From Leucobacter musarum subsp. musarum (lineage in GTDB: Bacteria; Actinomycetota; Actinomycetes; Actinomycetales; Microbacteriaceae): a stretch of 64,000 nt of DNA. Location: contig NZ_JHBW01000062.1 in NCBI RefSeq assembly GCF_001273845.1, forward strand, positions 62,001 to 126,000, given 5' to 3'. The notes beneath the pieces were generated by a model that was given only the letters and a program-made list of their open reading frames with translations, made no database searches and was not told where the DNA came from. The position numbers and the translations under genes were made by a program. Shown piece by piece: positions 1-16,807 of this stretch. Within the stretch, counting starts at the first letter, position 1. The number at the start of each line of letters is the position of its first letter.

Positions 1-2
1 AA

Positions 3-737
3 CCGCGCATTGAAGCCGTGTCGGGCGCCGAGCGGTTGACGTGGACGCCGGTCGACGGTGGGGCGAGCCTCGCCGTGGACGACACCATTGCGGTCGACCT
101 GCAGGTGCGCGTGGACGACACGCTCTTCTCAGCCCAGGGCGTCACGAATGTCGCATCGGTGCGTTCGGACGACGACGCGAACCCGGCGAACAACGTCGCC
201 GACGCGACCGTGGTCATCGACCCCGTAGCGACGCTCGTGGTTGAGAAGACCGCGGTGGGCGACTTCCAGGTCGGCGGAACGGGCGAATACCGCATCACCG
301 TCGAGAACCAGGGCCCCACTGCGGACCCCGGCCCGATCACGGTGATCGATCAACTGCCCGATGGGCTGCGGTTCGCTTCGTCGCCGTCTGCCGAGGTCTC
401 CGTCGACGGACAGCGCGTTGCCTGGACGATCGAGCACGGGTTGCAGGTGGGCGAGCGCGCGGAGTTCACGCTGTTCGTGCACGTGGATCAGGGGGCCTAC
501 CCATCGGTGACGAACACGGTCACCGTATCGAGTCAGACCACGCAGACCGATGGAGCTCGGTTGACCGACGACGCCACCGTCGAGGTGCGCGCCGCTGACG
601 GGCTGGCGACGACGGGAGGCGACGCGGCACCCCTGGCTGCGCTGGCAGCCTTGCTCCTCCTGGTCGGTGGAGCGGTCGCCCTGATGCTCGCTCGCCGCCG
701 TCGTGGTCGAGCCGCCGCTGAGGTGACGACCGCCTAG
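3..737 (+). CDS. Cell-wall-anchored DUF11-repeat protein, C-terminal part (5-prime partial)
   Basis: The reading frame is open at the window start, so only the C-terminal part of a longer surface protein is seen. It shows at least one complete DUF11-type beta-sandwich repeat (roughly visible residues 80-195: VEKTAVGDFQVGG through the TNTVTV strand), preceded by the end of another. Then comes a sorting signal: LATTGG, a hydrophobic stretch of about 20 residues and an Arg-rich tail. The LATTG pentapeptide fits the LAXTG pattern used by class E sortases of actinobacteria, so covalent attachment to peptidoglycan is inferred. The stop overlaps the convergent S4-domain gene by 4 bp. No function beyond surface display or adhesion can be assigned. 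Confidence 0.85.
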   Translation, partial: PRIEAVSGAERLTWTPVDGGASLAVDDTIAVDLQVRVDDTLFSAQGVTNVASVRSDDDANPANNVADATVVIDPVATLVVEKTAVGDFQVGGTGEYRITVENQGPTADPGPITVIDQLPDGLRFASSPSAEVSVDGQRVAWTIEHGLQVGERAEFTLFVHVDQGAYPSVTNTVTVSSQTTQTDGARLTDDATVEVRAADGLATTGGDAAPLAALAALLLLVGGAVALMLARRRRGRAAAEVTTA

Positions 738-1165: not shown

Positions 1166-1810
1166 ATGGAGTACGAGACGATCGTCACGGCCGTGGACGC
1201 CGAGCAGGAGATCTCGCGCTCCCGGTTTCTGGTGCGGCTCGAACGCGTCGCCGATGAGGCCGAAGCACGCGAGGTGATCGCCCGGGTACGCGCCGAGCAT
1301 CCGCGCGCCCGCCACCATTGCTCAGCGTTCGTGCTGGGGCCAGACGGGCGTGTGCAGCGCTCGAACGACGACGGTGAGCCCAGCGGTACGGCGGGCGCTC
1401 CCATGCTCGATGCGCTGGTTTCGGCGGGGCTCAGTGACGTCGTCGCTGTCGTCACTCGCTACTTCGGCGGTGTGCTGCTGGGGGCAGGTGGCCTGACCCG
1501 CGCGTATCGCTCGAGCGTCGCGAGCGCCACGCAGCGGGCGCGACGTCAGCCGCGCGGGCTGCGACGATCCGTCACCGTGCACTGCGCCTACGACATCGCG
1601 CCGCAGATCGAGGCCGAGGCGCGTCGTCGCGGGTACGGGATCGGCTCGGCCGAGTACACCGATCGCGTGGCGCAGCGCTTCGCGCTCGCTGAAGACGAGG
1701 TGTCTAGGCTCGCCGCACTCGCCGCCGAGGTGAGTGCCGGTTCGGCCGAACTCGAGACGGGTGCCGCCGAGTACGTCGACCTGGAACGCCCGGTCGGCGC
1801 TGCGCGGTAG
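1166..1810 (+). CDS. YigZ/IMPACT family protein
   Basis: A 214-residue member of the UPF0029/IMPACT family. The N-terminal domain has the family signatures CSAFVLGPDG, SNDDGEPSGTAG and TRYFGGVLLGAGGL, followed by the small C-terminal DUF1949-like domain (about residues 135-200). The length is normal for bacterial YigZ. Related proteins bind nucleic acid or ribosomes, but the bacterial role is not settled. The start has a short G-rich Shine-Dalgarno (GAGGGG) just upstream. The gene stands alone; the next gene on the same strand is about 290 bp away. Confidence 0.9.
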   Translation: MEYETIVTAVDAEQEISRSRFLVRLERVADEAEAREVIARVRAEHPRARHHCSAFVLGPDGRVQRSNDDGEPSGTAGAPMLDALVSAGLSDVVAVVTRYFGGVLLGAGGLTRAYRSSVASATQRARRQPRGLRRSVTVHCAYDIAPQIEAEARRRGYGIGSAEYTDRVAQRFALAEDEVSRLAALAAEVSAGSAELETGAAEYVDLERPVGAAR

Positions 1811-1844: not shown

Positions 1845-1967
1845 GAAAAAGCCCCCGGTAGCCTGGGGGACAGGTCCGGGGGCATGCCTCCCGCGTGGTA
1901 GGGGAAGTACCGTTGCGGGAGATGGTTTGAACTCGGGGGAACGAATCTTCAACCACTGAAGAGCTTA
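1845..1967 (-). ncRNA. Candidate structured small RNA with C-rich hairpin loops (6C-like)
   Basis: Read on the minus strand, this gene-free stretch folds into three successive hairpins: a 5-bp stem (1957-1961 with 1947-1951), a nested stem of 7 bp (1915-1921 with 1888-1894) plus 4 bp (1908-1911 with 1897-1900) closing a CTTCCCC loop, and an 8+4-bp terminator stem with a TCCCC loop followed by TTTTT. Two hairpins with C-rich loops, the second acting as terminator, resemble the actinobacterial 6C RNA, although the C runs here are shorter than six. Promoter and 5-prime end are uncertain; TAAGCT at 1962-1967 would place the start inside the first hairpin. Confidence 0.4.
1846..1883 (-). terminator. 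Intrinsic terminator (minus strand)
   Basis: An 8-bp perfect stem, GCCCCCGG (1876-1883) with CCGGGGGC (1851-1858), plus an inner CCTG/CAGG pair, is followed on the minus strand by five T residues (1846-1850). There is no T run on the plus side, so it does not terminate yigZ. It implies a minus-strand transcript from the gene-free region. Confidence 0.75.
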
Positions 1968-2027: not shown

Positions 2028-2091
2028 GGCGAGACTGAGTCCAGGAATCTGTGCGTCGGGACTTCGACCTCGCGTTGTCGGAGGGGCGCGA

Positions 2092-2097
2092 TACGCT
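2092..2097 (+). promoter_or_regulatory. -10 box, leaderless holB
   Basis: TACGCT ends 6 nt before the GTG start of holB at 2104. No Shine-Dalgarno is visible. Confidence 0.5.
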
Positions 2098-2103
2098 TTC
2101 GGG

Positions 2104-3258
2104 GTGGACTACTGGGCAGAAATCGTGGGTCAGCCCGATGCTGTGCGCATGCTCGACGCGGCATCGGCACCCGACGCGGTTCCGGCGCACGCCTGGCTCA
2201 TCACTGGCCCGCCGGGGTCAGGTCGGTCGAATCTGGCCTTCCGGTTCGCCGCCGCGCTCATTGCGCGCGGCCACGACCGCGATTCCGTGTTCGAGCAGGT
2301 GCGCGCGCGAACGCACCCCGATCTCGGCGTGCTCACCACGCAGAAGCTGCTCATCGATATCAAGGCGGCTCGCGAAATCGTCACGACGGCGCACTACTCG
2401 CCCGCCGAGGGGCGCTACCGGGTGATCGTGATCGAAGATGCCGACCGCATGCCCGAGCGCACGTCGAATGTGCTGCTGAAAGCACTGGAAGAGCCGCCCG
2501 AGCGCACCATCTGGGTGCTGTGTGCACCGAGCGAGGCCGATCTGCTCCCCACGATCCGGTCTCGAGCGCGCTCGCTACGCCTGGTCACGCCGAGCCCGAC
2601 CGACATTGCGCGTCTGCTGCATGAGCGCGACGGCATCAACGCTGAGGCGGCGGAGCGCGCGGCGCGGCTCGCGCAGAGCCACATCGGCATGGCGCGCCGA
2701 CTCGCGAGCGATCCCGATGCGATGCAGCGCCGCGAGCGCACGATCGAGATCGCACTCGGCATCCAGACGCTCGGAGACGCCATGCGCGCCGCCGCTGCAC
2801 TGGTCAAAGTGGCCGAGGCCGACGCGGCGGCGATCACCGAGGAGCTCGACGCGCGTGAGCGCGAGGAGGCGATGCGCGGCCTCGGCCTGGCGCCGGGGGC
2901 GGCGATTCCTCCGCAGATGCGGTCGCAGATCCGGGCCCTCGAGGAAGACCAGAAGCGGCGCGCCACGCGCAGTCTGCGCGACGGGATCGACCGTATTCTG
3001 ACCGACTTGCTCTCGCTGTTCCGCGATGTACTGCTGGTCGCGCTCGACGCCGAGCCAGAACTCGTGAACCGCGAGCATGAGGCAGCGATCCGCGAACTCG
3101 CGGCCCGCTGGGGCGCAGAGCGCTCGCTCTCGGTGGTCGCGGCCGTCGAGGCGGCGCGCGATCGGCTGAAGCGCGGCATCACACCGGGTCTGGTGCTCGA
3201 GGCTCTGTTTGCGCTGCAGAGCACGGCAGATTCGCGCACGCTCGAGGGTGCGCGATGA
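2104..3258 (+). CDS. holB: DNA polymerase III delta-prime subunit
   Basis: A 384-residue clamp-loader subunit. It begins with the typical Val-Gly-Gln-Pro region, has a P-loop-like GPPGSGRSN (residues 35-43; Arg replaces the Walker Lys, as usual in delta-prime), the VIVIEDADRM segment, LLKALEEPP, and an SRARSLR element at the SRC-motif position. It takes part in loading the sliding clamp at replication forks. The cysteine cluster of the zinc module found in many delta-prime proteins is absent; the corresponding segment (about residues 52-72) has no Cys. The GTG start follows a TACGCT box by 6 nt, so the mRNA is probably leaderless. The last codon overlaps the next gene (ATGA), implying coupled translation. 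No tmk is adjacent. Confidence 0.9.
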   Translation: MDYWAEIVGQPDAVRMLDAASAPDAVPAHAWLITGPPGSGRSNLAFRFAAALIARGHDRDSVFEQVRARTHPDLGVLTTQKLLIDIKAAREIVTTAHYSPAEGRYRVIVIEDADRMPERTSNVLLKALEEPPERTIWVLCAPSEADLLPTIRSRARSLRLVTPSPTDIARLLHERDGINAEAAERAARLAQSHIGMARRLASDPDAMQRRERTIEIALGIQTLGDAMRAAAALVKVAEADAAAITEELDAREREEAMRGLGLAPGAAIPPQMRSQIRALEEDQKRRATRSLRDGIDRILTDLLSLFRDVLLVALDAEPELVNREHEAAIRELAARWGAERSLSVVAAVEAARDRLKRGITPGLVLEALFALQSTADSRTLEGAR

Positions 3259-16498: not shown

Positions 16499-16560
16499 CC
16501 CGGTCCGCCGTTCTCCACTGCGTGCCGGGTGCGCAGGGTCGACGGACGCCCGTCACCCGC

Positions 16561-16696
16561 GCGTTCCTCTCATCCGGACTCGAACGCCGTGAGGCGTCCA
16601 TCACCGTCGGTATCGGAATTTCACCGATTCAACATCGTGGGTACGACGCTCGCGGACTGTCACCGCCGGTTCGGAATCACACCGACCCCGGAACAC
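16561..16696 (-). promoter_or_regulatory. FMN riboswitch (RFN element)
   Basis: On the minus strand the RFN consensus is nearly complete: GTTCCGGGGTCGGTG, ATTCCGAACCGGCGGTGACA, CCGCGAGC, TGAAATTCCGATACCGACGG, GAGTCCGGATGAGAGGAAC. It precedes ribD by about 60 nt. Family knowledge: FMN binding turns off the downstream riboflavin genes by termination or by blocking translation. No clear U-tract terminator follows, so control at translation initiation is more likely here. Confidence 0.95.
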
Positions 16697-16807
16697 GATC
16701 ATCATCGTAGTCCGCATCGACACGAAGCGTGAATGCGGTCGCATTGATTTCGCCCGGGGCGCAACACGGCGCAACATTGCGTGGGGTCGATGGGGTCGAG
16801 AGCGGGA

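Follow-up and report, generated by a model that had tools for sequence, protein, structure and literature searches.

What occupies the gap between yigZ and holB in Leucobacter musarum subsp. musarum? Both genes lie in a window of 64,000 nucleotides (nt; assembly GCF_001273845.1, contig NZ_JHBW01000062.1, positions 62,001–126,000), the whole stretch of DNA that was analyzed. An original prediction made from the letters alone placed an unannotated structured small RNA at window positions 1845–1967, with three consecutive hairpins, two of them with C-rich loops, and a strong U-tract terminator on the minus strand. The comparisons described here support a predicted minus-strand RNA, ~110 nt long, that has UCCCC in its loops and ends in an intrinsic terminator. 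Its candidate promoter stands at a fixed spacing from a box that is also found ahead of large secreted or surface-type genes. We refer to it as the C-loop RNA. A literature search found no published description of it.

The minus strand of 1845–1967 folds at −51.7 kcal/mol compared to −35.9 ± 3.3 kcal/mol for 200 dinucleotide shuffles (z = −4.84), and none of the shuffles equals it. The fold stability of the plus strand is only 3.05 standard deviations beyond its shuffles, versus 4.84 for the minus strand. Three hairpins are present as predicted, and a C run occupies all three loops rather than two. The mean unpaired probabilities of these runs are 0.86 for UUCCCCC in loop 1, 1.0 for UUCCCC in loop 2, and 0.83 for UCCCCC in loop 3. 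The only terminator-like site in 1700–2200 is on the minus strand at 1869–1852, with the tail CTTTTTCGTG and a U5 tract, which bears out the proposed terminator. It does not serve yigZ because no T run follows the hairpin on the plus strand, as had been argued. The gap was described as free of genes, and this holds: only yigZ and holB flank it, and between the end of yigZ (1810) and the start of holB (2104) there is no recognized gene, the overlapping open frames having been listed mechanically only. The predicted interval contains the RNA and also takes in the putative −10 element (1967–1962), and the transcript probably starts near 1956. A protein-coding reading was rejected. The core lengths are 108–117 nt and not all multiples of three, and therefore speak against coding, yet some frames are open. 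At its gathering thresholds, Rfam lists no feature of the whole window other than an FMN riboswitch and two tRNAs.

The distribution of the RNA was determined by BLAST and covariance searches. BLAST was the first screen and covered 199 relatives; 12 genomes were positive, including its own, and all belong to the same genus. The first covariance model was built from 12 sequences. The genus-wide search covered 54 Leucobacter genomes with strict filters and 69 candidates scored per genome, and the family-wide search covered 398 family genomes drawn evenly with 9 candidates scored per genome. In the genus, 14 of the 54 genomes matched; the G032 match is a terminator only, which leaves 13 true matches. 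Genome G022, whose locus has no yigZ, carries a divergent copy upstream of holB that was recognized by eye and makes the 14th genome; a second model did not score this copy at expectation (E) values up to 0.1. The search was repeated on the genus genomes lacking a true match, 40 out of 41 (G053 omitted), and returned five weak matches, four of them terminator-like including G032, and locus L187 was not viewed at its match. The 13 family-wide matches comprise four in the genus (G000, G017, G048, and the G032 terminator) and nine outside it. Two of the nine, L103 and L104 from one genus, look like real C-loop RNAs. L105–L108, L110, and L111 were set aside as terminator-like, some adjoining tRNA genes, and L109 was not displayed at its match. 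An exact scan for the terminator pattern matched seven records, all Leucobacter and L. chironomi DSM 19883 among them. The holB gene was found in 53 of the 54 genus genomes. Among the 25 loci having both genes, drawn from 30 holB loci, the yigZ–holB gap is 275–493 nt in the 12 with the RNA versus 49–164 nt in the 13 without it. In G038, the RNA adjoins yigZ, and holB sits on a separate contig.

The stems of the RNA are conserved by compensatory change. When 12 sequences are aligned plainly with MAFFT, both partners have changed in 14 of 31 pairs, and none of 500 shuffles is as high. The model-fitted alignment of 13 sequences leans towards the modelled structure and gives 17 of 30 pairs changed on both sides, with 0 of 500 shuffles as high on all five measures. 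Covariation exceeds both shuffled and slid controls. Helices 1 and 2 covary best, with 8 of 9 pairs changed on both sides in the fitted alignment, whereas helix 3 is paired in 77% of cells and helix 4 in 65%. The terminator hardly varies, with the four inner pairs of its stem constant across 13 rows, and its covariation is therefore uninformative. Every one of the 13 model-found loci has UCCCC in loop 1, and all but one have it in loop 3, the exception being G047 with GCCCCCC; loop 2 lacks UCCCC in G030, G017, and G026.

A direct repeat, GGGTGAA-N5-GGGTGAA, lies upstream of the RNA with at least 13 of 14 bases matching in 12 of the 13 model-found loci. Of the 12 loci with this box, 11 have a −10-like hexamer 38 nt downstream and one has it at 39 nt. 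The hexamer is GATGAT in G029 and TANNNT in the other boxed loci. In G029, RNA and box share an orientation opposite to the usual one with respect to yigZ and holB, which assigns the box to the RNA instead of holB. Conservation, covariation, and this promoter architecture back the unannotated structured small RNA of the original prediction, and a lack of stem conservation in relatives, named there as a refutation, was not seen: the stems change in compensatory fashion. Terminator, promoter architecture, covariation, and core lengths point the same way, and minus-strand 1956–1846, judged from these sequence comparisons, is most probably a real, uncatalogued small RNA gene.

The same observations bear on whether the conserved hairpins act only as a double terminator or attenuator, set between convergent and divergent genes, with no function in trans. 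A minus-strand terminator is there, and 1700–2200 holds no other terminator-like site. This explanation is nevertheless very improbable: it leaves the covarying hairpins 1 and 2, the constant C-loops, and the fixed-spacing promoter unexplained, the yigZ side has no T run, and the unit is inverted in G029.

We also consider it rather improbable that the direct repeat is an element of holB or a PHO box rather than the activator site of the RNA. TTCACC repeats with an 11-nt period precede the pstS-like and PHO4-family genes of this genome and look like ordinary PHO boxes, and an excerpt of PMC4415409 gives GTTCACC as the core of the related Streptomyces PHO box. The box of the RNA has a 12-nt period and no G of GTTCACC, keeps 38–39 nt to the −10 of the RNA, and is inverted with it in G029. 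Membership of the Pho regulon was rejected on the 12-nt period, the core GGGTGAA (TTCACCC), and the orientation; a single extra half-site stands at 11 nt. The holB gene owns a promoter-like element that is present also without the RNA: a GTCRG...TAnnnT match is found in 29 of 30 holB upstream regions, loci without the RNA included. This element resembles the PafBC RecA-NDp promoter motif, and holB may thus be under the control of DNA damage. For the RNA itself, a promoter of the PafBC type was rejected, its spacing and core varying among relatives as judged by eye.

The box also occurs elsewhere in the genus. The exact box has 60 sites in 32 of the 54 genus genomes, and the reversed-pattern control has 1. 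Eight sites are at the C-loop RNA, four are at a G-loop RNA described below, and 20 precede open reading frames whose products were classed by eye as secreted or surface-type. Thirteen of these 20 have TANNNT at 38–40 nt. Ten of these surface-type products were scanned against Pfam; five are above cut-off (DUF11, putative-Ig, bacterial-Ig, SpaA, or adhesive domains), two are sub-threshold, and three have no match. One of the 20 is a giant DUF11 gene whose 3′ end opens the window. It starts ~11 kilobases upstream of the window with the exact box ahead and no TANNNT at the usual spacing. Its product (window 1–737 and L207) ends in an LPXTG-like tail, LATTG, recognized by eye. The leaders of a pAdhesive_15-type gene (L124, L139, and L154; Pfam on L124) each have two GGGG-loop hairpins and GGGGGA runs.

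These comparisons lead us to propose, with a probability of about 0.62, that the C-loop RNA is a trans-acting riboregulator, 6C-like in action, and the noncoding arm of a surface-protein regulon. A putative DNA-binding activator would turn on the surface-protein genes and the C-loop RNA together. The tandem repeat centered near −60 suggests that this activator is perhaps a response regulator. The exposed C-rich loops would base-pair with ribosome-binding sites or leaders rich in G, and a set of mRNAs would be translated less as a result. In this view, a regulon for surface remodelling would have the C-loop RNA as its noncoding arm, which would work much as 6C, sX13, and LhrC do and probably helps tune expression during cell-surface rebuilding.

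Several results weigh against this proposal. In 40 of the 54 genus genomes, no copy of the RNA was found, and G038 carries the RNA without the box. Counts of further pair types in the unfitted alignment are as high in 76 of 500 shuffles. Among the 60 box sites, at least 8 lie within one conserved coding frame, probably by coincidence, and ~20 are unclassified, near other genes or unviewed; 7 of the 20 surface-type sites have no TANNNT at 38–40 nt. The loop-pairing energies of three box-regulated leaders of this genome rank 3rd, 11th, and 24th of 44, each against 43 window upstream regions, and are not discriminating. The box-gene leaders contain 10 G-loop hairpins compared to 2.2 ± 1.4 in shuffles (0 of 200 as high), but 6 of the 10 come from one orthologue group, in genomes that have the G-loop RNA and in which the C-loop RNA was not found. 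The excess is driven by this group and is therefore not used as proof of targeting.

The layout of the C-loop RNA recalls 6C RNA, which has two hairpins with six or more C per loop and reportedly binds several mRNAs through its C-rich loops. The original prediction offered a divergent 6C or a new class and proposed a covariance search with the Rfam 6C model (RF01066; gathering threshold, 47 bits). That search found no match: 1780–2130 (351 bases) gave no 6C line at E up to 10, and its own genome gave 0 matches at E up to 0.001. Under strict filters, the 6C model matched 34 of 149 relatives, 10 over the curated cut-off; 19 are of the same family outside the genus and 0 are in the genus. The 6C of the family adjoins a TadA-like gene in six of six genomes examined, with an acetyl-CoA synthetase gene on the other side in four. 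All 12 Leucobacter genomes checked keep the acetyl-CoA synthetase gene next to the TadA-like gene, with no pair of C runs between the two. Runs of five C in the flanking context searched for are absent from nine of these 12; L196 has one TTCCCCC, which falls inside the reading frame of tadA, and CTCCCCC occurs once each in L197 and L198. The two RNAs share compact C-loop hairpins, a last hairpin that is the terminator, and an actinobacterial host. They differ in that the C-loop RNA has three hairpins, each with 4 or 5 consecutive C in its loop, and lies at yigZ–holB with a GGGTGAA box, whereas 6C has two hairpins and lies beside tadA. On the Rfam result, the hairpin number with its C runs, and the locus, 6C membership fails. 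The analogy stands on the C-rich loops and the terminator as last hairpin. By these searches, the C-loop RNA is not a detectable 6C, and descent by relocation is possible.

Such a descendant would be a diverged 6C, lost beside tadA and surviving as a three-hairpin copy near yigZ and holB. We regard this as unlikely. The loop motif UUCCCC/C is common to both RNAs, both end in a terminator hairpin with a C-loop, and the new RNA occurs where 6C was not detected, the 6C search having matched 19 genomes of the same family outside the genus and none inside it. There is, on the other side, no Rfam 6C score, a third hairpin, another locus, and no GGGTGAA box before any of the six family 6C genes checked. 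Genome G087 of another genus holds a separate C-loop RNA plus a sub-threshold 6C match, and C-loop RNAs can therefore arise beside 6C. Within the family but outside Leucobacter, L103, L104, and L183 show a C-loop RNA with UUCCCCCC loops behind a GTCAG...TAGCTT element, separate from the sub-threshold 6C match of that genome. The 6C of G077 has two UUCCCCCC runs.

Two known riboregulators from other bacteria resemble the C-loop RNA. The best bit score in the Rfam scan of 1780–2130 belongs to sX13 (RF02232), which aligns end to end and also has three stems with C-rich loops. The score is 21.3 bits versus a gathering score of 50 (E = 0.049), sX13 comes from another phylum, and the likeness is read as convergence. 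The lines for U3, 2dG-II, anti-hemB, and other sub-threshold Rfam families in this interval were taken as chance. An excerpt of PMC3771888 describes sX13 of Xanthomonas as repressing mRNAs with G-rich motifs near the start, independently of Hfq. LhrC of Listeria, in the excerpted text of PMC4132741, has UCCC loop motifs, responds to envelope stress via the two-component system LisRK, which switches it on by way of sequence upstream of −53, and targets an adhesin mRNA. UCCC motifs also occur in the loops of the C-loop RNA, but LhrC is multicopy, of different sequence, and from a low-GC host.

These parallels bear on the idea that the C-loops are protein-recognition hairpins and that the partner of the RNA is a protein instead of an mRNA. 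In its favor, the loops are constant while the stems vary, and the replacement of the C-loop RNA by a GGGG-loop companion in one clade is hard to explain with a single antisense target. No candidate protein was named, no search aimed at CsrA or Hfq homologues having been made, and the experimentally studied C-loop RNA sX13 requires G-rich motifs in its target mRNAs according to the same excerpt (PMC3771888). We hold protein binding to be quite improbable and retain mRNA pairing as the proposed action of the C-loop RNA.

The companion RNA was encountered where the box precedes a different noncoding locus. In G001, G013, G019, and G028, this locus adjoins a csoR-type gene (PF02583 in L152) and has GGGG in its hairpin loops, the terminator-like hairpin included (L125, L132, L152, L156, and L200–L206). 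A model built from those four genomes found the G-loop RNA in 7 of 54 genus genomes, adding G012, G015, and G041. All seven loci have a box-like repeat upstream, and a −10-like hexamer stands ~10 nt further in G001, G015, and G041. There is no overlap between the 7 G-loop and the 14 C-loop genomes. In a holB tree of 30 genomes, in which 9 of 27 inner branches are well supported, the seven G-loop genomes group together (support 87/88) and the C-loop RNA is on other, scattered branches. Neither RNA was found by these models in 33 of the 54 genus genomes. RosA of Bacillus, described in a passage of PMC8216469 as a sponge RNA whose G-rich regions pair with C-rich small RNAs, is a possible parallel for the GGGG-loop RNA, with the difference that the Leucobacter G-loop and C-loop RNAs were not found in one genome.

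A tentative reading is that the surface-protein regulon has alternative noncoding arms of opposite loop chemistry under the same kind of box: the C-loop form near yigZ and/or holB (14 of 54) and the GGGG-loop form near csoR (7 of 54). One form may silence G-rich leaders, and the other may be a leader decoy or protein sponge. A lineage might thus have switched the polarity of its riboregulator and kept the transcriptional control.

The coordinates of the C-loop RNA, its control elements, and its neighbors are collected in Table 1. Elsewhere in the window, Rfam places the FMN riboswitch at 16558–16699 on the minus strand.

Table 1. Features of the C-loop RNA locus in window coordinates.
Feature	Position	Strand	Basis
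C-loop small RNA (limits inferred)	1846–1956	−	Fold, covariance model matches, covariation
Hairpin 1, loop UUCCCCC at 1941–1935	1922–1956	−	Fold; covariance helices 1 and 2
Hairpin 2, loop UUCCCC at 1906–1901; least conserved hairpin	1888–1921	−	Fold; helices 3 and 4
Hairpin 3, terminator stem, loop GUCCCCC at 1871–1865, inner CCUG-UCCCC-CAGG	1851–1883	−	Fold, terminator scan
U5 tract of terminator	1846–1850	−	Sequence, terminator scan
−10-like hexamer TAAGCT, 38 nt from box	1962–1967	−	Comparison of loci
Direct-repeat box GGGTGAA-N5-GGGTGAA, proposed activator site	2006–2024	−	Pattern scan, comparison of loci
Extra third half-site GGTGAA, 11 nt further on	1995–2000	−	Sequence
holB promoter-like element TTGTCGGAG-N8-TACGCT, distinct from RNA promoter	2075–2097	+	Motif match in relatives
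holB (DNA polymerase III delta′), divergent neighbor of RNA	2104–3258	+	PF13177
yigZ/UPF0029, convergent neighbor of RNA	1166–1810	+	PF01205
3′ end of giant DUF11 surface-type gene, frame ~4,000 codons	1–737	+	Domain scan; one of 20 surface-type sites

Riboregulators with C-rich loops are already known from unrelated bacteria, and this one is found in a genus where 6C was not detected. The most surprising parts of the finding are its regulatory setting and the G-loop counterpart. For the genus, in which some species live with nematodes, the outcome is a candidate surface regulon together with GGGTGAA-N5-GGGTGAA as an operator-like motif. The C-loop RNA, linked by its promoter box to giant surface proteins, is a testable case in which a widespread actinobacterial small RNA may have been replaced. 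The complementary distribution of C-loop and G-loop RNAs under one kind of control element would directly test how pairing polarity evolves.
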